Of a DNA stretch of 57,647 nucleotides, positions 7,113 through 57,647 are shown piece by piece (the first letter of the stretch is position 1; every line of letters starts with the position of its first letter). The notes under the pieces are model-generated. The model saw only the letters and a list, made by a program, of their open reading frames with translations. It ran no database searches and was not told where the DNA came from. The position numbers were made by a program, and so were the translations under genes. The stretch comes from a virus, in IMG/VR virus record IMGVR_UViG_3300048918_000350, positions 1 to 57,647 of that record. The stretch is one strand, 5' to 3'.

Positions 7113-7114
7113 CC

Positions 7115-8505: not shown

Positions 8506-8520
8506 AAAGGATGTAAGGAC

Positions 8521-8928: not shown

Positions 8929-8929
8929 C

Positions 8930-9364
8930 GTGACCGACTTCGAGCTCGAGGACGACGAGTACCACCTGTTCTTCGAGGACCCCAAGTACAACGGCCTCGA
9001 GGTCGTCATGGCGGACATGTCCCTCGAGGACGCCCTGGAGCTCGACGAGGCGCGCTTCGCGGTTCCCGAGACGATCGCCGACATCAAGAAGCAGGCCCGG
9101 ACGCTCGCCGAGCTCATCGGCGAGCGGCTGGTGTCGTGGAACCTGACCAAGAAGGGCGTCGCAGTCCCCGCCGACGCGAAGGGGCTACTCCAGCAGAAGC
9201 GGGGCTTCCTCGACGCGGTCGTCGGAGCCTACGTGCAGGCGCTGCGAGGCGTCCCGGCCCCTTTGGCGCTCGGCTCGAGCGATACCGGCTCGAGCTCGAA
9301 CGATGGCTCGCCCTCGGACCAGGTGCCGCCGATTCCGATGGAACCGTTGTCCGAGCCCCAGTAG
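8930..9364 (+). CDS. Tail assembly chaperone, upstream frame (gpG-like)
   Basis: 144 residues from GTG 8930. The N-terminus is very acidic (FELEDDEYHLFFEDP) with helices MSLEDALELDEARF and TIADIKKQARTLAEL, and the tail is Ser/Asp/Pro-rich. Position between tail tube and tape measure is diagnostic for the first chaperone. A heptamer CCCTTTG in the zero frame (C CCT TTG) at 9259-9265 with a downstream hairpin would allow a -1 shift to the second chaperone frame. Confidence 0.8.
   Translation: MTDFELEDDEYHLFFEDPKYNGLEVVMADMSLEDALELDEARFAVPETIADIKKQARTLAELIGERLVSWNLTKKGVAVPADAKGLLQQKRGFLDAVVGAYVQALRGVPAPLALGSSDTGSSSNDGSPSDQVPPIPMEPLSEPQ
9259..9295 (+). promoter_or_regulatory. Programmed -1 frameshift site
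   Basis: Slippery heptamer CCCTTTG is in the X XXY YYZ register (9259-9265). After a 7-nt spacer, GCTCGAGC at 9273-9280 and 9288-9295 can pair through 8 bp around a 7-nt loop. Spacing and stem fit known stimulatory hairpins. The frame entered is the chaperone T frame. Confidence 0.65.
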
Positions 9365-9528
9365 AACCCGTGGAGCTCCGGCACGCCCGGTTTGTGCTGG
9401 AGACCTGCGAGAGGTACGGCACGCTGCCGTGGCCCGGCTCGCTGATGCAGCAGCCGGCGCGGTTCCTGCGCCTGCAAGAGATCGTCCGACTAGGCACACC
9501 GGAGAGGAGGACCGCCGCAGATGGCTAA
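9259..9528 (+). CDS. Tail assembly chaperone, -1 frame extension (gpGT-like)
   Basis: This open frame (-1 relative to the 8930 gene) continues past the first chaperone stop to TAA 9526-9528. From the slip site it reads GARLERYRLELERW, then LRHARFVLETCERYGTLPWPG and LMQQPARFLRLQEIV. The later part is typical of the T region that contacts the tape measure. It lacks its own convincing ribosome site, so a fusion of about 199 residues by -1 slippage at 9259-9265 is expected. Its end overlaps the tape-measure start. Confidence 0.7.
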   Translation, partial: PFGARLERYRLELERWLALGPGAADSDGTVVRAPVEPVELRHARFVLETCERYGTLPWPGSLMQQPARFLRLQEIVRLGTPERRTAADG

Positions 9529-14238: not shown

Positions 14239-17084
14239 GCTACTCCGACATCTACTCGGACATCTACGGTCCGGCGTTCCCGCAGTCGCAGCTGGACCTG
14301 CGTACCGAGCTGCTGCTCGGCGGGGTGTGGACGGACATCTCGAAGCTGGTCTACCAGCGTGCCGGGACGACTATCACTTACGGCCACGCGGACGAGTCGT
14401 CGCAGTTGCAGCCGTCGACGGCGCCGATGCAGCTGAACAACCGGTCGGGGAACCTGTCGCCGCGCAACCCGTACGGGCAGTGGTTCGGGCTGCTCGGGCG
14501 CAACACGCCGCTGCGCCTGTCGACCCCGGCCGCGTCGTCGTATCTGCGACTGGAGAACGACGCCGTCTCCTACGCCACCTGCCCGGACCGTTCGACGCTC
14601 GACATCACCGGCGACATCGACGTGCGCGTCGAGATGCGCCCGACGAACTGGGCGTCGGCCGCGCTGGCCTCGAAGGCCACGGTCTTGACGAACCAGGAGT
14701 CGTGGCTGTTCCTGATGAAGTCGACGGGCCAACTCGAGTTCGCCTGGTCCCCGGACGGCACGATCGGCAGTACGAAGCTGGTGGTCTCGACGGTGGCGAT
14801 CCCGGTCGGGCGGATCGCGGTGCGCGCGACGCTGACGGCGTCCACGGGCACCGTGACGTTCTACACCGCGCCGAGCCTGTCCGGGTCCTGGACCCAGTTG
14901 GGCGCCCCGGCGTCCGGCACGTTGGGCGCGCCCACGACTATCTTCTCTTCCAGTGCGCCGGTCCAGCTGGGATACAACGTCAACGGGGGGACCAGCGGCT
15001 TCCAGGGGCAGATCTTCGGGTTCCAGCTGCGCAGTAGCATCGGTGGGACGCTGGTGGCCAGTCCGGACTTCACCGCCCAACTGGCGGGAACGACGAGCTT
15101 CTCCGACGCGCAGGGCAACCTGTGGACGATGGCGGGCACCTCGGAGGTCTCCAACCGTCGCTACCGGATCCACGCGGAGGTCCCGGCGTGGCCGCCGCGG
15201 TGGGACAACACGGGCCAGGACCAGTACGTCCCGGTGGAACCGGCGGGCCTCACACGCCGACTGACGCAGGGCACCCCGCCAGCGCAGTCCGCGCTCTACC
15301 GGGCGTACGCGACGCTCTCCGGGTCCCTGGCGCCGCTCGGCGGGCTGCTCGCGCCGGTGGCGTACTGGCCGTGCGAGGACGGTTCGGGCGCGACCTCGCT
15401 CGCCTCGGCGCTGCCCGGCGGTTCCCCGATGGCCGTGACCGGCACGCCATCGCTGGCTTCGGGCAGCGGATTCGTGTGCTCGCAGGCCGTTCCGGTGCTA
15501 GCTGGCTCGAGTTGGCGCGGCCAGGTCGCGACGGGCTTGTCGTGGCCGGCGAACACGTTCCGGTTCCTGATGCAGGTACCCGCGGCCGGCGACACGAACG
15601 GAGCGATCCTCGCCCGGATGTACACCGGCGGCACGGTCGCGCGGGTCGACGTGGTCTACAACTCTGGCGCTTCCGGATCGCTGACGGTGAACTGCTACAA
15701 CTACGTCGGCACGCTGACCGGCACGGCGAACCTGTCCGGGTTCACGCTGCCGTCCGGCGGCTCTGGCGGCTGCAACAGCTGGCCGATGCGGATCGGGGTG
15801 GACCTGCAGCCGTCCGGCGGCAACGTCGTGGTGACCCTGTCGGGGTTCATCGCCGGGGCGTCGGGGCTGGTGTCGATCCCGGTCACGGTCTCGAGCGCGA
15901 CGATCGGCGCTGTGACCTCGGTCCTGATCAACCCGGGCGGCGCGCTGACGCAGACCGCGGTCGGGCACATCACGATCCAGCGGATCTGGGACTCCCCGTT
16001 CGACCTGGCGGCTGCGCTGAATGCGAACTTCGGTGAGACCGCTGGGGCGCGCTTCGTGCGGCTGTGCACGGAGGAGGGGATCGCCTCGCGGATCGTCGGG
16101 TCGCCGGACGACACGGTGCCCATGGGCTACCAGCCGCCGCTCGCGTTCGTCCCCCTGCTCCAGCAGTGCGAGGATGCGGACAGGGGGCTCCTGTTCGAGC
16201 CGAAGCAGGTTCTCGGCTACGGCTACCGGACCCGCGCGTCGATGTGCAACCAGGCCGCGGCGGTCGCCCTGGACTACGCGCTGAGCCAGCCGTCGATGCC
16301 GTTCGAGCCGACGGACGACGACCAGTACACGGTCAACGATGCGGTCGTCACCCGCTCGTCGGGCACCGTCACCGGGTCCTCGGCGCGCCAGTACACGGGC
16401 AGCGGCCCGGAGTCCGTTCTCTCGCCGCCGTCGGGGGTCGGGGACTACGGCAACGCTTACTCCCTGAACCTGGCCACCGACGGCCAGGCCGCGCAGGAGG
16501 CCGGGTGGATCGTGCACGTCGGGTCGGTGGACGAGCCGCGATACCCGGCGATCACGGTAGACCTGACGCGGCCTGCGAATGCGTCGCTCGTCAATGCGGC
16601 CCAGGACGCCGAGGTCGGGGACCGGGTCACGGTGGCGAACACGCCGACGCAGCTGCCCCCGGACGGGGTGAGCCAGCTCATCCGCGGCGGCACCGAGGCG
16701 CTGAACGGTTTCCAGCTGACCGAGACGTGGGTGTGCGTACCCGAGTCGCCCTACCGGGTCGGGGTGTACGACGACGCCACGTTCGGCCACTACGACACGG
16801 ACGGCTCGAGCCTGTTCTCGCCGGTCACCGCCGCGGCGGTCACGTTGAAGGTGGCGACGCTGAACGCCGGCTCGCCGTTGTGGACCACCAACGCCGCGGA
16901 CTTTCCGTTCGACATCGAAGCGAGCCCGGCCGGGACGTCCGGCGAGCGCATGACGGTCACGAACATCACCGGTGCCTCATCACCGCAGACGTTCACGGTG
17001 ACGCGCGCCGTGAACGGCGTCAGCCGCTCCTGGCCGGCCGGGACCGATATCCGACTCTTCCAACCCGCCGTCTACAGCCTCTAG
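14235..17084 (+). CDS. Large minor tail protein with lectin-like inserts
   Basis: 949 residues from GTG 14235, which overlaps the previous stop; an in-frame ATG at 14142 would overlap far more. The N-terminus (LDLRTELLLGGVWTDIS, then NNRSGNLSPRNPYG) matches actinophage minor tail proteins that replace Dit/Tal. Residues about 95-300 and 380-560 look like LamG/concanavalin-like modules (VAYWPCEDGSGAT). The end (GERMTVTNI to RAVNGVSRSWPAGTDIRL) is a beta module also seen in the connector at 2942-4003. Probably the baseplate hub and sugar binder. Confidence 0.75.
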   Translation: MSYSDIYSDIYGPAFPQSQLDLRTELLLGGVWTDISKLVYQRAGTTITYGHADESSQLQPSTAPMQLNNRSGNLSPRNPYGQWFGLLGRNTPLRLSTPAASSYLRLENDAVSYATCPDRSTLDITGDIDVRVEMRPTNWASAALASKATVLTNQESWLFLMKSTGQLEFAWSPDGTIGSTKLVVSTVAIPVGRIAVRATLTASTGTVTFYTAPSLSGSWTQLGAPASGTLGAPTTIFSSSAPVQLGYNVNGGTSGFQGQIFGFQLRSSIGGTLVASPDFTAQLAGTTSFSDAQGNLWTMAGTSEVSNRRYRIHAEVPAWPPRWDNTGQDQYVPVEPAGLTRRLTQGTPPAQSALYRAYATLSGSLAPLGGLLAPVAYWPCEDGSGATSLASALPGGSPMAVTGTPSLASGSGFVCSQAVPVLAGSSWRGQVATGLSWPANTFRFLMQVPAAGDTNGAILARMYTGGTVARVDVVYNSGASGSLTVNCYNYVGTLTGTANLSGFTLPSGGSGGCNSWPMRIGVDLQPSGGNVVVTLSGFIAGASGLVSIPVTVSSATIGAVTSVLINPGGALTQTAVGHITIQRIWDSPFDLAAALNANFGETAGARFVRLCTEEGIASRIVGSPDDTVPMGYQPPLAFVPLLQQCEDADRGLLFEPKQVLGYGYRTRASMCNQAAAVALDYALSQPSMPFEPTDDDQYTVNDAVVTRSSGTVTGSSARQYTGSGPESVLSPPSGVGDYGNAYSLNLATDGQAAQEAGWIVHVGSVDEPRYPAITVDLTRPANASLVNAAQDAEVGDRVTVANTPTQLPPDGVSQLIRGGTEALNGFQLTETWVCVPESPYRVGVYDDATFGHYDTDGSSLFSPVTAAAVTLKVATLNAGSPLWTTNAADFPFDIEASPAGTSGERMTVTNITGASSPQTFTVTRAVNGVSRSWPAGTDIRLFQPAVYSL

Positions 17085-21934: not shown

Positions 21935-22666
21935 ATGACGCACCAGCGCAAGCCTGAGACGAACACGCGCGAGATCGTCGCCGCCAAGCTGCGCGGCCGC
22001 GTCTTCTCCGGCGAATGGGGACCAGGCGCGCAACTGCCCACCGTCCGCGGCGTCGCCGAGCAGTACCAGTGCAGCCACGTCACCGCCCACGAGGCCATCA
22101 AGATCCTGGAGGCCGAGGGGCTCATCATCCTGCGGCCCCGGCAGCGCGCCGTCATCGCCGACACGCGACGCTCCATCGCCGGGTCCCGCGAACGCCTCGC
22201 CAGGTCGGCCGAAGGCGGCCTGTTCCGGCCTACCGAGACCCCTGAGATCCTGCGCGCGGAGATCGCCACACGCCCACATCCCGAAGCGCTCGAAGCCTTC
22301 GGACCCGACGCCGGGGACCGGCTCGGCCGGCGCGAGTACCTGGTGCGCATCGGCGGCACCGTCGTAACCTACGGCTGCTCCTACTTCCACCTGGCGATCT
22401 GGGCCCAGGTCGACGAGCTGCGCGTGGCCGAGCCGATCGTGGACGGCGCCGTCGGCGCGATCCGACGCGCCATCAACCGTAAGGTCGCCGTGATGCCTCC
22501 GCCGATCCACATGGCCGCGGCCGCCACCGATCTGGAGTCCGACCGGCTCGGCGTGCCGGAGGACAGCCCGGTGTTGGTGGAGACGACCACGTGCATCGAC
22601 TCCGCTGGAGAGGTGCTGGAGTGGAACATTCAGGTGCACCCGGCCGGCTACCGGATCGGCGCCTGA
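21935..22666 (+). CDS. GntR-family (HutC/KorA-like) transcriptional regulator
   Basis: 243 residues; AGAGG precedes ATG 21935. The N-terminal winged helix reads KLRGRVFSGEWGPGAQLPT then VRGVAEQYQCSHVTAHEAIK and LEAEGLIILRPRQRAVI, diagnostic of GntR. The C-terminal 140 residues match a UTRA effector domain (PVLVETTTCIDSAGEVLEW). In Streptomyces plasmids and AICEs the KorA/KorSA/TraR regulators of this family control transfer and copy number. The operator upstream supports autoregulation. Confidence 0.85.
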   Translation: MTHQRKPETNTREIVAAKLRGRVFSGEWGPGAQLPTVRGVAEQYQCSHVTAHEAIKILEAEGLIILRPRQRAVIADTRRSIAGSRERLARSAEGGLFRPTETPEILRAEIATRPHPEALEAFGPDAGDRLGRREYLVRIGGTVVTYGCSYFHLAIWAQVDELRVAEPIVDGAVGAIRRAINRKVAVMPPPIHMAAAATDLESDRLGVPEDSPVLVETTTCIDSAGEVLEWNIQVHPAGYRIGA

Positions 22667-23609: not shown

Positions 23610-25043
23610 ATGGAATCGTTGCGAGCCTTCGTCTATGACCGCACGTCACGCGACATCAAGGGCACTGCGAGCGAGCGGGCCAACGCGGACCAGAACACCG
23701 AGAACGAGCGGATCTGCCAGCGGCTCGGTGCTGTGATCGTGGCCCGGTTCACGGATCCGGGCAAGGGGGCGTCGCGGCACTCGAAGTCGAAGCGCGACGA
23801 CTACGAGCGGATGGTCGAGCGGGTCGAGCGGGCCGAGTGCGACATCCTCGTGGTGTGGGAGGCGTCCCGGGCGTACCGGGAGCTCGGGATGTATGTGCGG
23901 CTGCGTGACCTGTGTACGAAGCACAAGGTGCTGCTGTGCTACAACGGCCAGGTCTTCGACATGACGCGCGGCAACGACCGGTTCCTGACGGGTCTGAACG
24001 CGTTGCAGGCGGAGCTGGAGGCGGATGTGATCCGGGACCGGGTGCTGCGCACGACGCGGCTGAACGCGGAGCGGGGCCGGCCGCACGGGCGGCTGCCGTA
24101 CGGGTACCGGCGTGTCTACGACGAGCGTACGGGCGCGCTGGTCGAGCAGGTGCCGGACGAGGAGCAGGCGCCGATCGTGCAGGAGATCGCGCGGCGGGCC
24201 GCGGGTGGCCAGTCGCTGTATCTGATCGCTAAGGATCTCAACGACCGCGGTGTGCCGGGGCCGACGGGGCGGCCGTGGGATCCGCAGATATTGCCGGATC
24301 TGATCCGGAAGCCGACGTATATCGGCAAGCGGCAGCACCAGGGGCGCGTCGTGGGCGATGCGGTGTGGGAGCCGATCCTGGACGAGGAGACGTACTACGC
24401 CTGCGTGCGGCTGTTCTCGGATCCAGCGCGCCGCACATCGAAGGGCAGTGCGGTGAAGTTCCTGCTGTCGGGGATCGCGCGGTGCTCGGTGTGCAAGGGG
24501 GTGGCGAGGCCGCGCCGGTCGTTCGAGAAGGACCGGTGGGCGTATACGTGTGTGGCGACGGGCTGTTTCAAGGCCTCGATTCAGGTCGTGCCGTTCGATG
24601 CGCTCGTGAAGGAGGCGCTGCTGGAGTATGTCGAGCGTCCCGAGTTTGTGGCCGCTCTGGGCCGCAGTGCGGGCGGCGATGCGACGGCGGCGGCGCTGGC
24701 TGAGGCGGAGGCGCTGGAAGCACAGTTGGCAGACGCTCGAGAGATGGCGGGGCGGTGGGAGAATGGCCAGTTGGCACTGTCTGTGGCGTCGTTGGCGTCG
24801 TTGGAACGGCAGTTGCTGCCTCGGATCGAGTCGGCACGTGAGCGTGCGCAGTCGGCGGAAGTACCTCATGCGCTGCGGGAGATCGCGGGGCCGGGCGCGC
24901 GCGCGAGGTGGGATGCGATGGGGGAGGATTTGACGTGGCGCCGGTCGGTGGTCAGGCCGCTGGTGGTGCCGTGGATGAATCCGGCGGGGAAGGGCGTGCG
25001 GGGGATCCGGCCGGGCAGGTTTGATCTGGAGTGGCTGTACTGA
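23610..25043 (+). CDS. int: Large serine recombinase (phage integrase)
   Basis: 477 residues. ATG 23610 follows attP. The N-terminal catalytic domain has AFVYDRTSRD with Ser13 as the likely nucleophile and the arginine cluster RDRVLRTTRLNAERG. The Recombinase domain (LPYGYRRVYDE, LNDRGVPGPTGRPWD, LIRKPTYIGKRQHQG) and a zinc ribbon (CSVCKG near residue 292, YTCVATGCF) follow. A coiled coil lies in the C-terminal third. It should catalyse attP x attB integration. The convergent gene ends nearby across a terminator. Confidence 0.95.
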   Translation: MESLRAFVYDRTSRDIKGTASERANADQNTENERICQRLGAVIVARFTDPGKGASRHSKSKRDDYERMVERVERAECDILVVWEASRAYRELGMYVRLRDLCTKHKVLLCYNGQVFDMTRGNDRFLTGLNALQAELEADVIRDRVLRTTRLNAERGRPHGRLPYGYRRVYDERTGALVEQVPDEEQAPIVQEIARRAAGGQSLYLIAKDLNDRGVPGPTGRPWDPQILPDLIRKPTYIGKRQHQGRVVGDAVWEPILDEETYYACVRLFSDPARRTSKGSAVKFLLSGIARCSVCKGVARPRRSFEKDRWAYTCVATGCFKASIQVVPFDALVKEALLEYVERPEFVAALGRSAGGDATAAALAEAEALEAQLADAREMAGRWENGQLALSVASLASLERQLLPRIESARERAQSAEVPHALREIAGPGARARWDAMGEDLTWRRSVVRPLVVPWMNPAGKGVRGIRPGRFDLEWLY

Positions 25044-25085: not shown

Positions 25086-25703
25086 CTACTTGACGCAGAC
25101 GTGCAGGATGCCGGGTACGACGGCTCTGAGTAGGCAGACAGTCGAAGAGGGCGCGGGGGAGGGCGCTAGGACGGGTGGAGGCGTTGATGCCGGGGGTGCA
25201 CTGGGGGCCGCGGGCGCGGTTCCGGAGGATGTCGGCGTGGGCCGCGGGGGCGGCGTGTAGAGCGAGATGGGGATGATGGTCGGCACGGCGTTCGCAGGCT
25301 GGCTCGCGGCCGGTGGGGGGAGCGCGTTTGAGCCTGCGATGGAACTGCTCGGTGGGAGTGCGATCGTCGTGTCGGGCTGCGTGCCGCCGGTTGGGACGGT
25401 CAGGACGAGTATGGCGGCGGCGAGCCCGGTCATCGCGGCACCGATGGCGACGGGGCGCCGGGGTCGGTATCTGGCGAGCGCTCCCAGGCCAGCCGGGATA
25501 GTGACGGCCCCGGCGCCGCCGCCTCGGATGATGGTGAAGCGCCGCCGCCGCTCCTCGGGGGTAAGCGGCGCGGCGGCTTCGACCCGCGCGCGGGCCCGGG
25601 CTTCGAGCTGAGCCAGCCTCGCGGTCAGCGTGTGGAGCTGTCGCCGGATCTCGGCGACCTCCTGTTGATCTACATCACCTTCTGATGGCATGTCAGATGA
25701 CAT
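25086..25703 (-). CDS. Coiled-coil membrane protein with Pro-rich exported tail
   Basis: 205 residues. ATG 25703 was chosen because GGAGG lies 6 nt upstream; the longer frame would overlap the next gene. The N-terminal 60 residues form a coiled coil (VAEIRRQLHTLTARLAQLEA). A transmembrane helix (AIGAAMTGLAAAILVLTVP) leads to about 90 Pro/Ser/Ala residues and a short Cys-containing end (TVCLLRAVVPGILHVCVK). It may remodel the lysogen surface. Family not recognised. Confidence 0.6.
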   Translation of the reverse strand: MSSDMPSEGDVDQQEVAEIRRQLHTLTARLAQLEARARARVEAAAPLTPEERRRRFTIIRGGGAGAVTIPAGLGALARYRPRRPVAIGAAMTGLAAAILVLTVPTGGTQPDTTIALPPSSSIAGSNALPPPAASQPANAVPTIIPISLYTPPPRPTPTSSGTAPAAPSAPPASTPPPVLAPSPAPSSTVCLLRAVVPGILHVCVK

Positions 25704-25779
25704 ATACCCCTCCGTGTGGACAGCGTCCGTAGCGAGGCTATGCATCGTAGAGCGAGAAGATTGAGAGGTAAAGAGATGG

Positions 25780-25989
25780 TCAGCTACTTCTATCGGGTGA
25801 ATTCTGGCCACCCTGCCGCAGCGCTCTGATCTGCCCCTTCAAGTCCTCAATGTCCCACCTGGCGTGATTGCCGGGGGTAACAAGGGTCGGCGTGACCGTC
25901 CCCTCCTGCCACCAGCGAGCGAGGGTGGAGTGGGCGACGCCGATCGCCTTCGCGGCGACTCCGGTAGGCACGAGGGGCGCGTCAGACAT
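25780..25989 (-). CDS. MerR/AlpA-like DNA-binding protein (possible excisionase or repressor)
   Basis: 69 residues from ATG 25989; ATG 26007 in frame is an alternative. The winged-helix motif TGVAAKAIGVAHSTLARWW followed by TPTLVTPGNHARW is typical of MerR/Xis-type proteins. Position next to the integrase makes a recombination directionality or lysogeny-control role attractive. A 12-bp inverted repeat covers the start region, which implies autoregulation. Confidence 0.65.
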   Translation of the reverse strand: MSDAPLVPTGVAAKAIGVAHSTLARWWQEGTVTPTLVTPGNHARWDIEDLKGQIRALRQGGQNSPDRSS

Positions 25990-26014
25990 GCCGACACGAT
26001 CAGGCATGTCCGAC
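25981..26014. promoter_or_regulatory. Operator overlapping the MerR-like start codon
   Basis: GTCAGACATGCC (25981-25992) and GGCATGTCCGAC (26003-26014) are inverse copies with one mismatch, spaced by 10 bp. Both possible ATG codons of the MerR-like gene lie in the arms, so binding there would block its expression. Confidence 0.55.
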
Positions 26015-26078
26015 GCGATTTCACCTCGGAATGGACGATCACGGCTGTTCGAGACGATTAAGCGGTTACAGGATGCTG

Positions 26079-26468
26079 TCAGGCGCCCTTGCGGGTTGAA
26101 ACAGCCCCCCCGTCGGCCCGGGCTTCTAGGGCCTCGGCTCGGGTGAGGAGTTCTGCCGCCAATGCCCGCAGGCTGCGGATCTCGTCGGCGAGTTGGGCGT
26201 CGGTGGGGCTCGGCGGTTGTGGGCGTTCGCCGCCGGCCCAGAGTACTTCTACAGTCCCTGCCTCCCATTCCAGAATGCGTTCGAGTTCGGTTCGTGTGCG
26301 TCGCGTGGGCTTGACCTCAGTGCGGCCGGACCAGAGTCGTTGGATGGTGGATCGACCCAGGCCGCTGTGGTGGATGAGGTCTTCCTGCAACCAGCCGCGG
26401 TCCGCGCAGGCTTCGCGGATCGCTTCGGCTAGGCGCGCAGGATGTGGGCGCCCTCTCTCGGTGGTCAC
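26079..26468 (-). CDS. XRE-family repressor (CI-like, probable immunity repressor)
   Basis: 129 residues from GTG 26468. The helix-turn-helix (LAEAIREACADRGWLQEDL then IHHSGLGRSTIQRLWSGRT) is of the XRE/Cro-CI class. The second half is a long helical segment (ADEIRSLRALAAELLTRAEA) likely to dimerise. It is divergent from a Cro-like gene with three operators between them, the standard lysis-lysogeny arrangement. No peptidase domain is present, so induction may depend on the antirepressor. Confidence 0.75.
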   Translation of the reverse strand: MTTERGRPHPARLAEAIREACADRGWLQEDLIHHSGLGRSTIQRLWSGRTEVKPTRRTRTELERILEWEAGTVEVLWAGGERPQPPSPTDAQLADEIRSLRALAAELLTRAEALEARADGGAVSTRKGA

Positions 26469-26488
26469 GCCCTCATGATGCCCTACCC

Positions 26489-26506
26489 AGGCACCAATTG
26501 GTAACA
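26489..26506. promoter_or_regulatory. Operator O1 of the CI/Cro-like switch
   Basis: AGGCACCAATTGGTAACA matches the palindrome consensus AGGCACC-N4-GGTGCCT in one full half and part of the other. It is nearest the repressor gene. Confidence 0.65.
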
Positions 26507-26551
26507 CCGCCCCGGCTTTCATGGCTCTCACGTGGACCGATAGAGCGCGCC

Positions 26552-26569
26552 CGGCGCACATTGGTGCCC
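26552..26569. promoter_or_regulatory. Operator O2 of the CI/Cro-like switch
   Basis: CGGCGCACATTGGTGCCC keeps a strong right half (TTGGTGCC) and a degenerate left half. Its centre is 63 bp from O1 and 62 bp from O3. Confidence 0.55.
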
Positions 26570-26606
26570 AGATGGAAGTGCGTGCGCCGGTAATTTTCAA
26601 TGGGGC

Positions 26607-26636
26607 TTGCGTTAGGCACCATATGGTGCCTACGAT
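26607..26636 (+). promoter_or_regulatory. Promoter of the Cro-like gene
   Basis: TTGCGT (26607-26612) and TACGAT (26631-26636), 18 bp apart, fit a sigma-70-type promoter. The start point would fall at or next to ATG 26643, suggesting a leaderless mRNA, consistent with the lack of a strong ribosome site. O3 lies between the two boxes. Confidence 0.5.
26614..26631. promoter_or_regulatory. Operator O3 of the CI/Cro-like switch, perfect palindrome
   Basis: AGGCACCATATGGTGCCT is an 18-bp perfect palindrome lying in the spacer of the Cro-gene promoter. Repressor bound here would shut the early operon. Confidence 0.75.
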
Positions 26637-26642
26637 GGGGCC

Positions 26643-26852
26643 ATGAGATTGAACGCCCCGGCCGTCGACGCGCTGTGCCGCACCAAGCGGATAGGAAACA
26701 GCGAGCTCGGACGGCACATCGGCAAGACACGCCAGTTCGTTGGGCGCCTGCGCCGGGGTCAGCGTGGAGCCTCAGAGGGCACCATCCAGGGTATCGCTGA
26801 AGCCTTGGACGTGTCGGTCGAGGCCATCACCATCCCGGAGGCTGCCCAGTGA
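26643..26852 (+). CDS. Cro-like XRE DNA-binding protein
   Basis: 69 residues, almost all one helix-turn-helix domain: NSELGRHIGKTRQFVGRLRRG then SEGTIQGIAEALDVSVEAI. It is the first gene of the rightward early operon and overlaps the antirepressor start. By position it should compete with the repressor for the three operators. Confidence 0.75.
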   Translation: MRLNAPAVDALCRTKRIGNSELGRHIGKTRQFVGRLRRGQRGASEGTIQGIAEALDVSVEAITIPEAAQ

Positions 26853-44151: not shown

Positions 44152-45576
44152 GTGCTCGACGAGCTGGACATGCTCGCCGAGCGGCTCGGCGGGAAAGCCT
44201 CCGGTTACCCGACGCCGGGGCATCTCGCCCGCGCGCTCGAGCCGCGCACCGTGCAGACCACGGCGCTCGACGTCCTCGACAGCGCACTGGTGGACACGAT
44301 CGACGGCCACCCGCGCCTGATCTTCACGATGCCGCCGCAGGAGGGCAAGAGCCAGCGCGTCTCCCGCTGGTACACGCTGTGGCTGCTGCTCGGAAACCCC
44401 GACCTGCGCGGCGGCATCGTTTCCTACTCCGACGCCCTGGCCCGCCGGTGGGGCCGCACCGTCCGCAACGACATCCGCGACCATCCCGAACTCGAGCTGA
44501 CCGTGCGCGGCGATACCGCGGCCGCGAACGAATGGCAGCTCGACGGCCACGACGGCGGCCTGATCACCGTGGGTATCGGCGGGTCGCTCACCGGCCGGCC
44601 GCTCGACTTCGCCATCGTGGACGACCCGTTCAAGGGCCGCAAGGAAGCCCAGTCCGAGGTGCAGCGCGCCACGGTCACCGACTTCTGGAAGTCGTCCCTG
44701 TCCACCCGCATGTCCGAGGGCGCGCCCGTCGTGGTGATTCAGACGCGCTGGCACCAGGGCGACCTGGCCGGCTACCTCCTCGCCGAGGACCCGGACGAGT
44801 GGCGGCACATCAACATCCCGGCGCTGGCCGACCACAGCCCCGAGAAGGGCGAGACGGACGTGCTCGGCCGCGCACCCGGTCAGTGGATGCCCTCGGCGCG
44901 CGGCCGCACCGCGGAGGGCTGGCGCCGCCGCCAGAAGGACGCGGGCGCGTACGACTTCGCAGCCCTCTATCAGGGTCGCCCGTCGCCCGGCGAGGGCGGC
45001 GTCATCAAGCGCGACTGGTGGCGCTACTACACCGGCCAGCGCGCCGTACGGCGGGCAGACGGCACCTGGCACGCCCCGGGCGCCTCCGAGGTGCTGCAGT
45101 CCTGGGACCTGACATTCAAGGACACGAAGGGCTCGGACTGGGTCGTCGGCCAGGTGTGGGCCAAGTCCGGTCCGAAAGCATGGCTGCTCGACGAGGTCCG
45201 GGCCCGCGCCGGATTCCCGGAGACGTGCCGGCTGATCCGGGCGACTTCGGCGAAGTGGCCGCAGGCGTCCCGGAAACTGATCGAGGACAAAGCGAATGGC
45301 CCGGCGGTCATCGCGCAGCTGCGCACGGAGATCGGCGGCATCGTGCCGGTCACCCCGGTCGACTCGAAGGAAGCCCGCGTGCACGCGGTCTCCCCGTTCA
45401 TCGAAGCCGGGGACGTCGAACTGCCCGACCCCAGCATCGCGCCGTGGATCGGGGAGTTCGTGGAGGAGTGCAGCGCGTTCCCGAACGGCGCCCACGATGA
45501 CCGGGTCGACACGATGTCGCAGGCGTTGCATCAGTTCTTCCTCGGGCCGAAGCCAGGGATCAGGGTCCTGCGCTAG
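44152..45576 (+). CDS. terL: Terminase large subunit
   Basis: 474 residues from GTG 44152. Walker A-like PPQEGKS (residues 61-67), Walker B LDFAIVDD (151-158) and the RNase-H-like nuclease motifs SWDLTFKD and HDDRVDTMSQAL are present in order. It is the packaging motor and headful or cos nuclease. It ends four bases inside a convergent - gene. Size fits the short Terminase_6 group. Confidence 0.93.
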   Translation: MLDELDMLAERLGGKASGYPTPGHLARALEPRTVQTTALDVLDSALVDTIDGHPRLIFTMPPQEGKSQRVSRWYTLWLLLGNPDLRGGIVSYSDALARRWGRTVRNDIRDHPELELTVRGDTAAANEWQLDGHDGGLITVGIGGSLTGRPLDFAIVDDPFKGRKEAQSEVQRATVTDFWKSSLSTRMSEGAPVVVIQTRWHQGDLAGYLLAEDPDEWRHINIPALADHSPEKGETDVLGRAPGQWMPSARGRTAEGWRRRQKDAGAYDFAALYQGRPSPGEGGVIKRDWWRYYTGQRAVRRADGTWHAPGASEVLQSWDLTFKDTKGSDWVVGQVWAKSGPKAWLLDEVRARAGFPETCRLIRATSAKWPQASRKLIEDKANGPAVIAQLRTEIGGIVPVTPVDSKEARVHAVSPFIEAGDVELPDPSIAPWIGEFVEECSAFPNGAHDDRVDTMSQALHQFFLGPKPGIRVLR

Positions 45577-49382: not shown

Positions 49383-51527
49383 TCACGCACTCGCCACCGC
49401 ATACCCAGCGAGCACATCCGACCGCTGGTACACGTCCGCCGCCGGGCCGCCCTTCCCGCGCCGCTCACCCACCCGCACGACCAGCCCGCGATCACGCCAC
49501 GAGTCCAGATACTTCTGCACCGTCCCGCGACCGCCCGGCAGCCCCGCAGCCGTCGCCTCCGTGCCCACATCCCGGTACGTGAACCCGTCCGGCAGCCGCT
49601 TCAGCACCTCCCACATCGCCCGCCACGCCTCCGACTCGAACGGCGTGCCGTCCGGGTAGGTCGGCACCGACCGCAGATGCGTGCCGCGCCAGCCGGCCAC
49701 CGGCCCCGGCGCATCCTCGACCGGCTCGCCACCACCGCCCGGGCCCGGCACGATCGGCGGAGGCGCCACGAAACCGGCCCGCACCGAATCGACGATCCGA
49801 TACCGCTCCTCAGCCACGATCCGATGCGTCCGCACCCGAAACGGCTTACGCCCGGGCAGCCCCTTCAGGTAGCCGATGCCGTTGAACTCGTCACCCACCG
49901 GGATCTCATGCGCCGGGAACTGCTTCGCCATGCCCCGACCGAGAATCGTGTCGACCTGCTCAGGCGTCTCGCACCGCAGCGCCAGCTTCATCGGCACCAT
50001 GTCCCGGATCGCCGACGGCACGATCGTCGACTCGGGCTTCTGCGTGTCGTACACCCCGAACACGCCCACCGCGCGGCCGCGCGCCGCGATATCCCGCAGC
50101 TTCAGGATGAACTTGCTGCGGGCCTTCGCGTTGTCGTAGTTCGTGAAATAGGCGAGCTCGCCGATGAACAGGGCGATGCAGTCGAGCTCCATTTCCTCGG
50201 CCAGCTCCCGGGTCAACTCGGTCGCCCGGTATTCCTTGAGCAGGTCAGCGCGCTCTCCGATGTGCTCCTGCAGCGCCTCGAGGAATCCGATCGCGGCAGC
50301 CATGTCGGGCCCGCAGTGCTGGTGCGCGACGTCCTCGAAGATGACCAGTTCCCGGCCCGACCCGTCGATGGTCCACAGTTCGCAGTCCACTGCCTGCGCC
50401 ACGTGGCACAGGGGAGCGGCGACGGCGTTCGACTTGCCGGAGCCCGGCGAGCCCGCGACGAGGATTCCCGGCGTGCCAGCCAGGATCACGGTGACCTCGG
50501 CGCCGTCGTCGTCCACGCCGAGCTGCATCGGGTCCCAGATCGACACTGACCGACCCGGCGCCTCCACGGCCGGGTGCGCGCCGGGCCGGGGCAACTCCGC
50601 GACGGGCACGTTGTTGACCGAGAACACCACCTGATGCGACCCACGCCCCTGCGTCAGCGTCAGGCCGCCCGCCACGATCCGCAGCGTCGCCGCGATCTGC
50701 TCCTGCCGCGCCTTCACCGACCGGAACGCGACCGCCGCCGGCAGATCCACCGTGAGCGTCCACCGGTCACCGCTCGGCACCGACGGCGCGTCGTTCACGA
50801 CCGCTCCCGGGAAACCGTTCACCGCGAGCGCGTGCACGACCTCCAGTGAGAGCGGATGCTGACCGGTCCCGTTCGGCGGCGGGGTGAAGTAGAGCGGCTG
50901 AGCGGTCGAGTGAGCGAGTTTCGCGACCGCTCGGATCCGCTCGGTCTCCCGCGCGTGACCGGTCGCCCGCGCCTGGTGGATCGCGGCCGCGTGAGCGATC
51001 GTCCCGCCGAACGTCGCGACGATCCCGGCGACCCATGACCCGGCGGAGAGCGCTCCGAGCCAGACGGTGGCCCCGACCGCAGTGAGGGTGAGCGCCATCC
51101 CGAACGCCGTACCGATGATCTTCCCGGCGTGGCCGGCGAAATCCGCCGCGGCATCCGACGGCGACGACGGGTTCGAGATCGCGGCCAGCGAGCCGATGCC
51201 GGTCCCCGCCGAGAACGCCAGCCCCAGGCCCAGTCCGATCCCGCCGGCCAGGGCGTGGTGCGGCAGCAGGTGCACCAGCGACGCACACCCCTCCGCCACC
51301 GCCACCACCAGCGGCGTGAGCAGCACCGCCTTGTACGCCAGCGCGCCCTCCACCATCCCGGCGACGGCCTGCTCGGCGATGCGCCGTGGGTAGTGCTCGA
51401 TCGGCGAAACCGCAGGCGGAAGCGGCAGCAGCTGCTCGAGCACGTGCATCTGATGTGATGTGAGGGGCGCGCGCTGGGCCGGTATCCGGCCGTAACCGGC
51501 GGGAATGTGGTCGTGCGGGCCGGACAT
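49383..51527 (-). CDS. TraB/FtsK-like membrane DNA translocase
   Basis: 714 residues from ATG 51527. Residues about 66-180 hold roughly four transmembrane helices. Walker A is AGSPGSGKS (358-366). The Walker B region is IALFIGELAYF (451-461), with Gly456 where the family has Asp and Glu457 kept. Then come RDIAARGRAVGVFGVYDTQKP and TPEQVDTILGRGMA, typical of Streptomyces conjugative translocases. Residues about 630-695 form a winged helix (FTYRDVGTEATAAGLPGG) like the DNA-recognition end of TraB/FtsK. It should pump double-stranded DNA across membranes. It follows the DUF2637 gene by 23 bp. Confidence 0.88.
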   Translation of the reverse strand: MSGPHDHIPAGYGRIPAQRAPLTSHQMHVLEQLLPLPPAVSPIEHYPRRIAEQAVAGMVEGALAYKAVLLTPLVVAVAEGCASLVHLLPHHALAGGIGLGLGLAFSAGTGIGSLAAISNPSSPSDAAADFAGHAGKIIGTAFGMALTLTAVGATVWLGALSAGSWVAGIVATFGGTIAHAAAIHQARATGHARETERIRAVAKLAHSTAQPLYFTPPPNGTGQHPLSLEVVHALAVNGFPGAVVNDAPSVPSGDRWTLTVDLPAAVAFRSVKARQEQIAATLRIVAGGLTLTQGRGSHQVVFSVNNVPVAELPRPGAHPAVEAPGRSVSIWDPMQLGVDDDGAEVTVILAGTPGILVAGSPGSGKSNAVAAPLCHVAQAVDCELWTIDGSGRELVIFEDVAHQHCGPDMAAAIGFLEALQEHIGERADLLKEYRATELTRELAEEMELDCIALFIGELAYFTNYDNAKARSKFILKLRDIAARGRAVGVFGVYDTQKPESTIVPSAIRDMVPMKLALRCETPEQVDTILGRGMAKQFPAHEIPVGDEFNGIGYLKGLPGRKPFRVRTHRIVAEERYRIVDSVRAGFVAPPPIVPGPGGGGEPVEDAPGPVAGWRGTHLRSVPTYPDGTPFESEAWRAMWEVLKRLPDGFTYRDVGTEATAAGLPGGRGTVQKYLDSWRDRGLVVRVGERRGKGGPAADVYQRSDVLAGYAVASA

Positions 51528-51550
51528 CACATCACGTGTCGTGCGGCGGG

Positions 51551-52507
51551 TCACGGCGCCGCCGTCCCGGCCGCGGCGACGCGCGCTGCCTTCACCTCGG
51601 GGTGGCGGTCCTCGACGTCTTTGCGGACGCGCTTCGCGGTGGGCACGGACGGCTCCGCGTAGACGGGGGCCAGCTGTCCGGCGGCGATCAGCCGGGCGAC
51701 TTCCTCGGCGAGAGCGTCCCGGTACGCGTTCTCGGTCGGCCGCCGACCGGTCGCGTCCTGCACGGCCACGTAGACCGGGTGACCGATCTCGACCCACCGC
51801 TTCACGGTCGTGCGAGCGCTCGCACCGGACGCCGGCTGAACGGTCGGTGCTGGCGGCCGGTGGGCGGTCGCCGGGGCGGGTGAGCGGTTGGTGTGAGCGG
51901 TCGCGGGCGCCGGTGTGAGCGGTCGGGCCGCGACGGCTGGCTGAACGGTCGCTGGAGACACGGGGGGCGCCTGGACGGTGGCCGACTGAACGGTCGCCGT
52001 CTGCTCCGGTTCGGCGGCCTCGACGGCGGCCGTCCGGCGGCCGTGGCTGTCGGCGAGGCGCCCCTGAAGATGCAGCAGACGCTCGACGATCAGCGACGGC
52101 CACGCGCCCACGAACGTGAGCACGATGTCCGACGCGGCATACGACCCGAGGTGCACCGCGCGGAACACGGCGTTGCCCGCCATCGACATGGCCAGGCCGA
52201 GCCGCGCGTTCCAGACCGCGGTACGCCGGGCCCGGTGACCCTCCGGCAGGAGCATGGCGATCAGGGTCGAGGTGACCGCGTAGACGTCGATCGAGATCGG
52301 CAGCAGCCACGGGTGCGCGATGCCGACGAGCGCGCCGAGACCGGTGAGTCCCTGGAACGAGACGGCGGCTGACGCGGCGAGGGAGATCGGGATGCCGACG
52401 GCCGCGACTCTGCGCACAGAGCGGGGCGTGCGTACGGACGGCGCTGATTCGTCGAGTTCTGGTCCTCGTCGCGGGCCGTTCTGATGGTTATCCTCTTCGA
52501 CAGGCAT
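51551..52507 (-). CDS. DUF2637/SpdB2-like membrane protein
   Basis: 318 residues, ATG 52507 with AGGAG 7 nt upstream. The first 150 residues hold about four transmembrane helices (AAVGIPISLAASAAVSFQGL, PWLLPISIDVYAVTSTLIAM, LGLAMSMAGNAVFRAVHLGS, SDIVLTFVGAWPSLIVERLL), as in DUF2637 and plasmid spread proteins. A low-complexity Ala/Thr/Pro/Val linker leads to a basic C-terminal domain (VKRWVEIGHPVYVAVQDATG). In Streptomyces plasmids such proteins pass DNA between mycelial compartments with TraB. The linker DNA holds eight TGARCGGTCG repeats. Confidence 0.8.
   Translation of the reverse strand: MPVEEDNHQNGPRRGPELDESAPSVRTPRSVRRVAAVGIPISLAASAAVSFQGLTGLGALVGIAHPWLLPISIDVYAVTSTLIAMLLPEGHRARRTAVWNARLGLAMSMAGNAVFRAVHLGSYAASDIVLTFVGAWPSLIVERLLHLQGRLADSHGRRTAAVEAAEPEQTATVQSATVQAPPVSPATVQPAVAARPLTPAPATAHTNRSPAPATAHRPPAPTVQPASGASARTTVKRWVEIGHPVYVAVQDATGRRPTENAYRDALAEEVARLIAAGQLAPVYAEPSVPTAKRVRKDVEDRHPEVKAARVAAAGTAAP
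51837..51996. repeat. Cluster of TGARCGGTCG repeats, candidate transfer locus (clt/TRS)
   Basis: Eight same-orientation copies or near copies start at 51837, 51861, 51881, 51894, 51916, 51942, 51972 and 51987 (consensus TGARCGGTCG). An exact copy also lies in the translocase gene at 50899-50908. Streptomyces TraB proteins recognise clustered short direct repeats (TRS), so these could be its binding sites. They also encode the linker (ATVQ/ATAH), a competing explanation. Confidence 0.5.
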
Positions 52508-52679: not shown

Positions 52680-52796
52680 TGTCGCCCGGAAAGCAAGGAT
52701 GGCCGCCCACGGAGGTAAGCGGCCATGCCCTGTGCGCGCCGGCTGATCAGGCCGTCACGGCTTCCGGAGGAGGTGCCCCGCCCCGGCTCGAGGTCG

Positions 52797-52870
52797 TTGG
52801 TCCGGCAGGACTTGAACCTGCGACTCCCGCCTTATCAGAGCGGTGCTCTACCAAGCTGAGCTACGGGCCA
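52797..52870 (-). tRNA. tRNA-Ile (GAU)
   Basis: A 74-nt cloverleaf reads on the - strand: acceptor TGGCCCG/CGGACCA with one C-A mismatch, D arm GCTC/GAGC, anticodon stem CCGCT/GGCGG with loop CTGATAA (anticodon GAT), and T arm GCAGG-TTCAAGT-CCTGC. Discriminator A; CCA not encoded. Confidence 0.85.
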
Positions 52871-52940
52871 AGGGCCCGGCATGGCGCCGGGCTTGTCTCA
52901 GCGTCCTGCCAGGAGCTACCAGGCCGACTTTCTGAGTCCG

Positions 52941-53013
52941 TGGCAGCGACGGGACTCGGACCCGCGACCTCCGACGTATGAAACCGGCGAGCTACCAACT
53001 GCTCCACGCTGCT
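52941..53013 (-). tRNA. tRNA-Met (CAU), possibly Ile2-type
   Basis: A 73-nt cloverleaf: acceptor AGCAGCG/CGCTGCC with A1-C72 unpaired, D arm GAGC/GCTC, anticodon loop TTCATAC (anticodon CAT), T arm GCGGG-TCCGAGT-CCCGT. The anticodon stem lacks the three G-C pairs of an initiator. It could be elongator Met or a lysidine-modified Ile2 tRNA. Confidence 0.8.
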
Positions 53014-53171: not shown

Positions 53172-53432
53172 ATGGCTGCCGCCACCGTGCCCGCGCACGC
53201 GCCCGCCATCACCCCCCCGTGGCGACGCGCCCGCGCAGCCCTGGCGCACGTCACCGCCAAGGGCAAGACGATGTGCAGCGCCGCCCGCGCCCGATACCGC
53301 AGGCCCGCGCTGCACATCGCCGCGTTCGGCGCCATCGACGCCTCCGCCTGGCACACCTTCGGCATCGGCGCCGGACTCGCCGTACTCGGCGGCTTCCTGC
53401 TGATCTGGGAGTTCCTCGGCGGCGACGAGTGA
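53172..53432 (+). CDS. Small membrane protein preceding the portal gene
   Basis: 86 residues; GGAGG precedes ATG 53172. A basic N-terminal half and a C-terminal transmembrane helix (FGIGAGLAVLGGFLLIWEFL). Its stop overlaps the portal GTG, so both are translated together. Role unknown; holin-like or head-associated are possibilities. Confidence 0.55.
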   Translation: MAAATVPAHAPAITPPWRRARAALAHVTAKGKTMCSAARARYRRPALHIAAFGAIDASAWHTFGIGAGLAVLGGFLLIWEFLGGDE

Positions 53433-55651
53433 AGTCCCTCGTCGGCAGCATCGCGTCAGCAGCCAGCCGCAGCACCCCCGCCAGCAGCGAGCCCCCCGTC
53501 ACCTACGCCCGCACCGGCATGGCCCCAAACACCCTCATGCAAGGCGGAGCCGACCCCGGCGCCTACATGCGCGCCTACGGCACCAGCGGAACCGTCTTCT
53601 CCATCGTCTCCACCCTCGCCCGCCAAACCGCGAAAAAGCAGTGGCACCTCTACCGCCAAGCCACCGAAGACGGCCGCCGCCGCTACACCACCGGCGACAA
53701 GGGCTCAGACCAGCGCACCGAGGTACTCAAGCACCAGGCCATGTCCGTCTGGAACCGGCCCAACGCGTTCATGACCGGGTTCATGCTCCGCGAGTACGCC
53801 CAGACCTACCTCGACCTCACCGGCGAGTCCTACCTGATCGTGCAGCGCGACGCCCGCGCGTCATTCCCCACCGGCCTGTGGCCCGTACGCCCCGACCGCA
53901 TGGAACCCGTCCCGCACGCCACGAAGTTCCTCGCCGGCTACGTCTACCGCGGCCCCTCCGGTGAAGCCGTCCCGCTCCAGCCTGAAGACGTCATCATGAC
54001 GAAGTACCCGAACCCGTACGACATCTACCACGGGCTCGGGCCGATCCAGTCGATCCTCGTCGACATCGACGCCGCGAAGTACTCGGCGCAGTGGAACCGC
54101 AACTTCTTCCTCAACTCGGCCACACCCGGTGGCGTGATCCAGGTCGACAAGCGGCTGTCGGACGAAGAGTGGGACGAGTTCACCAGCCGGTGGCGCGAGT
54201 CGCACCGCGGCATCGGTGCCGCGCACCGCGTCGCCGTCCTCGAACAGGGCGCCGTCTGGGTCCCCAACGCCCACACCATCCGCGACATGGACTTCGCCGG
54301 CCTGCGCAGCGTCAGCCGGGACGTCATCCGCGAGGCGTTCGCCATGCACAAGGCCATCCTCGGCACCAGCGACGATGTCAACCGCGCGAACGCCGAGACC
54401 GCCCTCGAACTGTTCGAGTCGTTCCAGATCACCGACCGGCTCGACCGGTGGCGCGACACCCTCAACTGCTTCTACCTGCCGATGTTCGGTGCCACCGGCG
54501 AGGGCGTCGAAATGGACCACGACGACGCGGTCACCGGCAACCGCGAGGCGGACGCGCTCGAGCTGAAGTCGAAGGCGGATGCCGCACAGGTGCTGGTGAA
54601 CGCCGGATACGAGCCGCACGCGGTGCTCGAGACCGTCGGGCTGCCGGACATGGAGGTCGTGGAGGAGGCGACGCAGGCCCCTGCGCTGCCTCCGGCGTGG
54701 GTCCCGGCGCTGCCGCCAGCGCCCGCGACCCCTGCGGCCCCGGCCGAAGGCGAGCAGGGCACACAGAACCACGGGCGCCGCGCCATCCTCGCCGCCGCGT
54801 CGCAGACCACGATCGACCTGTCCCAGATGGACGCGCAGCACTCCCGTGCCTCTGCGTCGCTCGCCGCCGACTACCAGCGACAGATCACCCCAGTGCAGCG
54901 GCAGCAGCTCGTCGACCAGATCCGCCAGCTCGTCGCCGCCGGAGCGATAGCCGGACTCGGCACGCTCGCGCTGTCCACCATGTCTGCGAAGTCGCTGATC
55001 CTCGCCGCGATGGTCGACTTCGGTGCCGCCTCCGCGCAGCAGGCGAGCCGCGAAGCCAAGCGGCAGGACGCCGACGCGCAGCCGGTACCGCCGCAGCAGC
55101 AGAACCTCGACGCCGTCGCCGAAGCCACCGCCGCGCTCCTCGCCGCCGAACTGGCGACCGCGGCCGGACGCGAGGCGACCCGTGCAGCTGGTGGCACCGC
55201 GACCCCCGATGCTGACGCCGTCGCCGAGCACGTCGCCGAGTTCCTCAAGGGACTGTCCGACGCCGGTCCCAAGGCACACCTCGCTGGAGCGCTCGCGGCC
55301 GCGCAGAACCAGGCCCGGCACGCCACGTTCACCGCCGGGCCTCGCTGCGAACTCGTGGCCAGCGAGGTCAACGACCGCAACACCTGCGGGCCCTGCGAAG
55401 CGATCGACGGCCGCAGCTTCGGCTTCTCCGACGACCCCGCGGCAGTCGACGCCGCGGCCGCCGCGTACCCGACCTCCGGCTACATCGCCTGCGAAGGCCT
55501 GGAACGGTGCCGCGGCGCCCTCGCGGCGGTCTACGACGCGAACCCCGACGACGGACCGAACAACTGGGCCCCGTCCTGGTTCCTGCACGACCTACCGCCC
55601 CCGGTCCACGCCGCCAACGGCCACCACAAGACCCCAGCAGGCGCCCGATGA
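53429..55651 (+). CDS. Portal protein fused to MuF-like domain
   Basis: 740 residues from GTG 53429. Residues about 40-410 are an HK97-type portal (SVWNRPNAFMTGFMLREYAQ, YPNPYDIYHGLGPIQSILVD, NRANAETALELFESFQI). After a Pro/Ala linker (about 420-440) and helices, the C-terminal part has NTCGPCEAIDGRSFG and GYIACEGLERCRGAL, the MuF (SPP1 gp7-like) minor head motif. One polypeptide therefore supplies both portal and MuF functions. Confidence 0.85.
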   Translation: MKSLVGSIASAASRSTPASSEPPVTYARTGMAPNTLMQGGADPGAYMRAYGTSGTVFSIVSTLARQTAKKQWHLYRQATEDGRRRYTTGDKGSDQRTEVLKHQAMSVWNRPNAFMTGFMLREYAQTYLDLTGESYLIVQRDARASFPTGLWPVRPDRMEPVPHATKFLAGYVYRGPSGEAVPLQPEDVIMTKYPNPYDIYHGLGPIQSILVDIDAAKYSAQWNRNFFLNSATPGGVIQVDKRLSDEEWDEFTSRWRESHRGIGAAHRVAVLEQGAVWVPNAHTIRDMDFAGLRSVSRDVIREAFAMHKAILGTSDDVNRANAETALELFESFQITDRLDRWRDTLNCFYLPMFGATGEGVEMDHDDAVTGNREADALELKSKADAAQVLVNAGYEPHAVLETVGLPDMEVVEEATQAPALPPAWVPALPPAPATPAAPAEGEQGTQNHGRRAILAAASQTTIDLSQMDAQHSRASASLAADYQRQITPVQRQQLVDQIRQLVAAGAIAGLGTLALSTMSAKSLILAAMVDFGAASAQQASREAKRQDADAQPVPPQQQNLDAVAEATAALLAAELATAAGREATRAAGGTATPDADAVAEHVAEFLKGLSDAGPKAHLAGALAAAQNQARHATFTAGPRCELVASEVNDRNTCGPCEAIDGRSFGFSDDPAAVDAAAAAYPTSGYIACEGLERCRGALAAVYDANPDDGPNNWAPSWFLHDLPPPVHAANGHHKTPAGAR

Positions 55652-57014: not shown

Positions 57015-57647
57015 CGACCATGACCATCCCCGACTCCGCGGCGGGGCTCGCCGAGGCGCTCAACGACCGAAAGATCCTCAAGGACCTCTGGGATTCCCCC
57101 GAGAACCTGAAGAACTTCATCGAGGGCTACGCCGACAAGACCGTCCACTCCTTCAAGGCCCAGGTCAAGGAGGAGGTCCAGCTCGGCATCGCGGAGTTCC
57201 TCAAGGCCAACGGCTCCGACGCCAAGCCGCCGGTCAACTTCGCCGGCGAGAGCCGCTCGCAGCTGCGCCCCCAGATCAAGGACCTGCCGTCCGGCGCCCG
57301 CAAGTCCCTCTACAACCGGCGCGCCCCCGGCGTGCGCGCCGACGGCATCTTCGATGACGCCGCGGAATTCTTCCGCGCCACCTGGCACCGGGCCAGCTCC
57401 GCCAAGGACTACCGCGACGTGCTGGCGCCGAAGCTGGCGAAGCTCTCGGAGATCCAGAACTCGTACTCCTCGGAGGTCCCGTCTTCCGGCGGGTTCCTCA
57501 TCCCCGAGGAGCTCCGGAGCGAGATCCTGCAGCTGGCGCTGGAGACCGCGGTGGTGCGTCCGCGCGCGACCGTCATCCCGATGTCCTCGGCGCGCGTCCC
57601 GATCCCCACGATCGACGACACCTCGCACCAGTCGAGCATCCTCGGAG
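57011..57647 (+). CDS. Major capsid protein, N-terminal part (gene split by window ends)
   Basis: 212 codons from GTG 57011, overlapping the protease stop, running off the window end. The first 150 residues are a helical delta/scaffold-like domain (LKDLWDSPENLKNFIEGYAD, FLKANGSDAKPP). The mature part begins near SSGGFLIPEELRSEILQLAL with TVIPMSSARVPIPTIDD, the standard N-arm and spine helix of HK97-type capsids. It continues at base 1 after the shared ILG. Confidence 0.93.
   Translation, partial: MTTMTIPDSAAGLAEALNDRKILKDLWDSPENLKNFIEGYADKTVHSFKAQVKEEVQLGIAEFLKANGSDAKPPVNFAGESRSQLRPQIKDLPSGARKSLYNRRAPGVRADGIFDDAAEFFRATWHRASSAKDYRDVLAPKLAKLSEIQNSYSSEVPSSGGFLIPEELRSEILQLALETAVVRPRATVIPMSSARVPIPTIDDTSHQSSILG

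Follow-up and report, generated by a model that had tools for sequence, protein, structure and literature searches.

The subject of this analysis is a two-gene cassette on a 57,647-base IMG/VR virus record (IMGVR_UViG_3300048918_000350), the whole of which is called the window here and on which a codon-usage gene caller places 86 genes. The cassette comprises P0001, a TraB-like double-stranded DNA translocase, and P0002, a SpdB2/DUF2637-like membrane protein (Table 1). Both genes are on the minus strand, with P0002 upstream and a gap of 23 bp between them, and the pair is antisense to the virion genes within a block of ~7.6 kb that separates the terminase from the portal gene. Comparison with proteins of plasmids and of actinomycete integrative and conjugative elements (AICEs) argues strongly for the identity of the two genes as a TraB-like/SpdB-type pair.

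An earlier reading made from the sequence alone (the sequence-only reading) proposed that P0001 has N-terminal membrane helices, an FtsK/TraB motor with the Walker A motif AGSPGSGKS and a C-terminal winged helix, and this architecture is confirmed. Hydropathy places four hydrophobic segments at residues 59-175, as expected of a membrane anchor, and residues 334-531 match FtsK_SpoIIIE (PF01580) with 43.5 bits against a cut-off of 24 in hmmscan. The C-terminal region, in a single-sequence structure model with a mean predicted local distance difference test (pLDDT) score of 75.5, has an H-H-H-E-E order whose nearest folds are winged-helix regulators. GenBank phages returned only weak matches to P0001, the best (~6e-8) being a mycobacteriophage FtsK, and plasmid records matched it down to 2e-31. 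The top plasmid match is the FtsK protein of a 125-kb Streptomyces zaomyceticus plasmid (NZ_CP107934), which is colinear with P0001 over its full length, winged helix included, at 33% identity; this plasmid also encodes portal and capsid proteins. TraB of plasmid pSVH1 is 31% identical to P0001 over 316 aa. Peptide scans of viral and genome collections found no close relatives of P0001 and P0002, and a defence-system reading was rejected, as it drew just weak overlaps of the FtsK-like motor with mads_8 and SspH.

A tree was built from an alignment of 40 motor domains of plasmid and AICE TraB, of chromosomal FtsK and of FtsK from the phages LittleE, Moonbeam and SpaA1. P0001 falls inside the plasmid/AICE TraB clade, and a branch with 98/98 support parts it from chromosomal FtsK and the three phage proteins. 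Approximately unbiased (AU) tests reject chromosomal FtsK (p 1e-5), LittleE FtsK (1e-4) and all non-TraB positions together (0.012) as the sister of P0001. When the S. zaomyceticus protein is left out, P0001 still stands next to short TraB proteins of Micromonosporaceae. The earlier claim of TraB identity is therefore upheld, the motor grouping with plasmid and AICE TraB rather than with chromosomal FtsK or the FtsK of isolated phages.

The partner protein is more divergent. The N-terminal half of P0002 contains three to four hydrophobic helices and is followed by a Pro/Ala-rich linker and, in a low-confidence model, a helical C-terminal part. In hhalign, a profile of three DUF2637 proteins aligns with P0002 over 104 columns at E 2.2e-4; two other membrane proteins reach just 0.34 and 0.15. 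A DUF2637 search of 14 control genomes gave zero matches at E 0.01, and the characterised SpdB2 of pSVH1 has no DUF2637 match in hmmscan either. P0002 itself went unmatched among phage and plasmid records. In plasmids of comparable layout, the DUF2637/SpdB2 gene adjoins TraB as P0002 adjoins P0001. We take P0002 as a divergent DUF2637 member, and in this form the DUF2637/SpdB2-like gene that had been proposed 23 bp upstream of P0001 stands. SpdB2 of pSVH1 reportedly binds DNA nonspecifically, oligomerises and interacts with TraB (PMC4170104).

A cluster of repeats, also proposed earlier, was found within the P0002 gene. The motif [GA]ACCG[CT]TCA occurs there six times in the same orientation over ~160 bp, and the copies are spread over all three reading frames of the gene, so that they are not merely a repeated peptide. 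Synonymous-codon shuffles yield at most three copies, with 0 of 5000 reaching four. The motif is the strongest clustered 8-mer of the whole 57.6 kb, and of 133 comparison pieces of 3.2 kb, a single one outscores the cluster. TraB is known to bind 8-bp repeats at the cis-acting locus of transfer, clt (PMC4170104), which carries direct repeats and can overlap a tra gene (PMC3583192). The array is thus a candidate clt-like recognition site for P0001, the alternative being the operator of a regulator.

The cassette lies on a phage genome. PHROG profiles identify a major capsid protein, tail genes, an endolysin, a serine integrase, an anti-repressor, a RecT-like protein, a replication initiator, a terminase, a portal and a maturation protease in the window, in agreement with the earlier claim of full capsid, tail and integrase genes and adding that the integrase is of the serine type. 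The ends of the record share 8 bases, ATCCTCGG (window 1-8 and 57638-57645), and when they are joined the capsid reading frame is continuous (...HQSSILG then GVQAFW...). Because the joined ends keep this frame, the record is a complete circular map opened within the capsid gene, with the cassette in its interior. Terminase, portal, capsid, tail and integrase genes on one complete molecule mark a temperate tailed phage. An AICE has an integrase, a replication gene and tra without virion genes; the window has an integrase, a phage-type replication initiator and tra, yet also full head, tail and packaging genes.

In two relatives (L018 and L030) and in a prophage of Catellatospora methionotrophica, portal-type genes nearly adjoin the terminase, which identifies the block between terminase and portal as inserted DNA. 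Antisense genes likewise follow the terminase in the two nearest terminase relatives, but their contigs stop there. Since the block is inserted and hairpins flank the cassette, it looks like a self-contained moron. The P0001 frame is open across 714 codons, and its codon use is phage-like. Elsewhere in the window, the GntR/UTRA regulator is a candidate regulator of the cassette, to judge by its sequence.

Table 1. Features of the cassette and of the surrounding phage genome (window positions)
Feature	Position	Strand	Remark
P0001, TraB-like dsDNA translocase, 714 aa	49383..51527	-	FtsK/SpoIIIE motor between membrane segments at the N-terminus and a winged helix at the C-terminus
Predicted C-terminal winged-helix domain of P0001	49386..49634	-	single-sequence structure model
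FtsK_SpoIIIE motor domain of P0001	49935..50528	-	PF01580, E 8.9e-14 in own-genome search
Codon 456 GGC (Gly) at Walker B aspartate position	50160..50162	-	Asp in 39/40 aligned homologues
Walker A AGSPGSGKS, residues 358-366 of P0001	50430..50456	-	intact
P0002, SpdB2/DUF2637-like membrane protein, 318 aa	51551..52507	-	Pro/Ala linker, helical C-terminal domain; AGGAG precedes gene
Array of six direct [GA]ACCG[CT]TCA repeats within P0002 gene	51837..51995	-	candidate clt/TraB recognition sequence (TRS)
Hairpin right after P0001 stop codon	49348..49381		15-nt arms, 93% complementary; possible terminator
Hairpin upstream of P0002	52646..52679		perfect 14-nt, sets cassette apart
tRNA-Ile(GAT) and tRNA-Met(CAT) genes	52796..53013	-	directly upstream of cassette, before portal, antisense to virion genes
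Terminase large subunit	44152..45576	+	left flank of inserted block
Portal protein	53429..55651	+	right flank of inserted block
GntR/UTRA regulator	21935..22666	+	resembles pSVH1 GntR across DNA-binding part
Large serine integrase	23610..25043	+	marks temperate phage

Between the integrase and the anti-repressor (window 25086-26717), several minus-strand open reading frames, among them one for a helix-turn-helix repressor-like protein, were left unpicked by the gene caller.

TraB modules are also found on other phage genomes. A 66-kb IMG/VR record (L014) has terminase, portal, capsid and tape-measure genes together with a GntR gene and adjacent genes for an SpdB2 protein (5e-37 to pSVH1 SpdB2) and a TraB protein (5e-22). 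The Catellatospora prophage, whose virion genes are syntenic with those of the window, has, antisense to those genes, GntR genes and the genes of a four-helix protein and a TraB protein; the layout and the absence of recognised AICE replication genes suggest that this TraB belongs to the prophage, for which no convincing attachment repeats were found. Its membrane protein (P0003 there) was considered as a DUF2637 member and is unsupported by profile tests. A second TraB in the same genome (L219, G002 C13 75500-95400), 88% identical to the prophage copy, lies beside a tape-measure gene and a strong DUF2637 gene and may mark a further TraB-carrying prophage or a remnant. When the four phage-borne TraB proteins are constrained to one clade, the AU test rejects the tree outright, so that actinobacterial phages must have captured such genes repeatedly and independently.

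TraB-like motors are common in whole genomes of Micromonosporaceae (85 of 151 at E 1e-10) and were found in 12 of 299 genomes of Streptomycetaceae (at E 1e-20); judged by their sequences, most of the loci inspected resemble those of AICEs or plasmids. Two more viral scans with TraB subfamily profiles found no additional phages. Another virus record (L226, IMGVR_UViG_2918501144_000002, 1-16633) was rejected as a TraB phage: the end of the record holds an SpdB2-TraB region of the pSVH1 type that includes an integrase-like gene and borders on a further integrase, so that this is an AICE-like region beside a prophage-type integrase and the provirus boundary probably includes an AICE. The sequence-only reading considered the combination of an FtsK protein, a spread protein and repeats unusual for a phage; this is so for GenBank phages, which gave weak FtsK matches and nothing for P0002, whereas prophages and phage-plasmids offer comparable cases, as does the plasmid-phage pZL12 discussed below.

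The reading that we favour, with our confidence evenly balanced, is that a captured TraB-SpdB-type transfer cassette of the AICE/conjugative-plasmid kind is expressed in the lysogen and moves phage DNA between hyphal compartments or hyphae. The cassette would have been taken up by a temperate tailed phage whose host is a filamentous actinobacterium of the soil, and P0001, as suggested by the pSVH1 system, would assemble at the membrane as an anchored TraB-like hexamer. Its winged helix would recognise a repeat array on the phage genome, for which the ACCG[CT]TCA repeats in the P0002 gene are the best candidate, and the motor would then drive double-stranded phage DNA across the membrane. P0002, as an SpdB2-like membrane and DNA-binding partner, may aid the passage of DNA through cross-walls. 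Because the cassette is isolated and antisense to the lytic genes, its expression would probably be from the lysogen or the excised circle, and the phage genome could in this way colonise adjacent compartments or hyphae without lysis. The gene identities, phylogeny, context and repeat array are observed, and hexamer formation, repeat recognition, expression and transfer are the parts that we infer. The sequence-only reading is thus supported in part: its identification of the genes holds, and the roles that it proposed, spread without virions or pumping of DNA at septa, are conjectural. The wider proposition is put forward more tentatively and we think it rather doubtful as a whole: that an integrating actinophage lineage has a second, virion-independent route, in which excised phage DNA is picked out by way of a clt-like array and pumped in double-stranded form to adjacent hyphae and through septa, making the phage a conjugative element as well as a particle, and that this ability was acquired several times independently.

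Several observations weigh against the transfer reading. The Walker B motif of P0001 reads IALFIGE, with Gly456 in place of the aspartate, the sole exception among the aligned motors and a change that the sequence-only reading overlooked. Gly456 could cripple ATP hydrolysis by P0001; the change may inactivate the motor or be tolerated, or the codon may reflect an error of sequencing or consensus. On account of this residue we name P0001 TraB-like by descent rather than a functional TraB, and our confidence in an active pump is lowered. Profile searches for FtsK_SpoIIIE, TraB and DUF2637, to which the sequence-only reading had looked, cleared the cut-off for the first family only. The NCBIfam plasmid_TraB equivalog, a model of one narrow subfamily, gives P0001 49 bits, far under its 800-bit cut-off, and DUF2637 gives P0002 19.8 bits (E 2.2e-5), under the curated cut-off of 22.8. 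BLAST of pSVH1 SpdB2 against P0002 finds no similarity. The pairing of P0001 with the S. zaomyceticus protein as sisters has support of just 86/88, and both branches are long, which makes the exact sister group of P0001 uncertain. Finally, the repeat motif was selected post hoc, after inspection; it is absent from the other phage-borne cassettes save for one isolated copy, and a TRS motif common to the phage cassettes was looked for and not found.

Two rival explanations keep some force. P0001 might act within the hypha, clearing or distributing excised phage genomes through closing vegetative or sporulation septa with no transfer between hyphae, so that each compartment or spore would receive the prophage or phage DNA. 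FtsK/SpoIIIE proteins act at septa and SpdB proteins in intramycelial spread (PMC4170104; PMC9513070), P0002 is a partner of the spread kind, and no other obvious spd genes were noticed in the window. Such a pump is nevertheless unlikely in our view, given that the motor's relatives in the tree are transfer TraB proteins, not chromosomal FtsK, and that an integrated prophage is inherited along with the chromosome anyway. It is likewise improbable, though worth keeping in mind, that the capture is decaying or catalytically altered, so that P0001 has ceased to translocate DNA and is either being lost or has a non-motor role, for example against the TraB pumps of resident plasmids and AICEs, which it would exclude or poison. 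The unique Walker B change, the divergent sequence and the long branches fit this explanation; the intact frame and normal phage codon use do not, nor does the retention of Walker A, of the glutamate at the catalytic position (Glu457, after Gly456) and of the TQKP and ILG motifs, and the change could be a single-base sequencing or consensus error.

That P0001 is an ordinary phage FtsK-like moron, as annotated in mycobacteriophages and Bacillus phages and unconnected to conjugation, seems very unlikely: it does match PHROG families of phage FtsK-like proteins (phrog_1358, 7e-34), but its matches in isolated phages are far weaker than those to plasmid TraB, the tree and AU tests reject LittleE FtsK as its sister, and it is paired with a DUF2637-like protein. 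We give almost no credence to an AICE or plasmid lying beside the phage contig or chimerically assembled into it, for which L226 offers a comparable IMG/VR case at a record edge, as the cassette lies between terminase and portal on a genome whose ends join in frame, its codon use is phage-like, and no AICE replication or tyrosine integrase gene was found among the window genes with BLAST probes.

Gene spread by phages and gene spread by conjugative elements are usually seen as two distinct routes. In filamentous actinobacteria, a single pump protein and a short DNA site suffice for conjugation, and therefore a phage can gain a conjugation route via a cassette of ~3 kb. Unrelated TraB types were captured independently by actinobacterial phages, and searches of the GenBank phage collection with P0001 and P0002 turned up none. 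If the transfer reading is true, some phages may spread both by virus particles and by direct DNA transfer, which would bear on how phages cross mycelia and on a possible mobilisation of host DNA by prophages.

Among known systems, gp198 of the Mycobacterium Omegavirus LittleE shares an FtsK-domain motor in an actinophage, but it is near chromosomal FtsK and its annotated neighbourhood is without an Spd-type partner. The Catellatospora prophage (G002 C1, ~1.557-1.614 Mb) has syntenic virion genes (capsid 61%, terminase large subunit 52%, portal 44%) and an antisense block of GntR, membrane protein and TraB; its TraB is of another subclade, 26% identical to P0001, and lies past the tail genes rather than between terminase and portal. 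The S. zaomyceticus NBC_00415 phage-plasmid shares portal and capsid genes, the FtsK protein most alike over its full length and a strong DUF2637 gene. It differs in that the DUF2637 gene is ~60 kb away, the Walker B motif is intact, the annotated integrase is a tyrosine integrase and the record is a circular plasmid. Separately, in its region 47456-67699 (L013 8457-28700), a 13-kb gene annotated as UvrD-helicase lies between the portal and capsid genes, and an ATP-grasp pair for a ribosomally synthesised and post-translationally modified peptide (tgmA/tgmB) lies shortly ahead of the portal.

With the TraB/SpdB2 system of pSVH1 and with AICE tra regions, the cassette shares a membrane-anchored FtsK-type motor of the same clade, a C-terminal DNA-binding domain, an adjacent multi-helix Spd-type protein, clustered direct repeats and a GntR regulator elsewhere in the element. 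Unlike them, it has a motor that is just 31% identical, a partner without BLAST similarity to SpdB2 and a glycine for the Walker B aspartate, and its carrier is a complete phage that encodes virions and has phage replication genes. The Streptomyces plasmid-phage pZL12/phiZL12 (GQ919031) likewise has virion genes and a reported conjugal transfer locus on one genome, and in a 2010 report it is said to form plaques and to be transferred. It has ParA/ParB genes where the window phage has a serine integrase, and its FtsK-like 71c is unmatched by the TraB profile; 71c and 72c were accordingly rejected as direct homologues. The tra genes of pZL12 are named in PMC3583192. This plasmid-phage is a precedent for virions and transfer genes on one molecule, and what the window adds to it is a phage of the integrase type, a pump of the AICE/plasmid type with a DUF2637-like partner, a candidate site in the partner gene and evidence of repeated capture.

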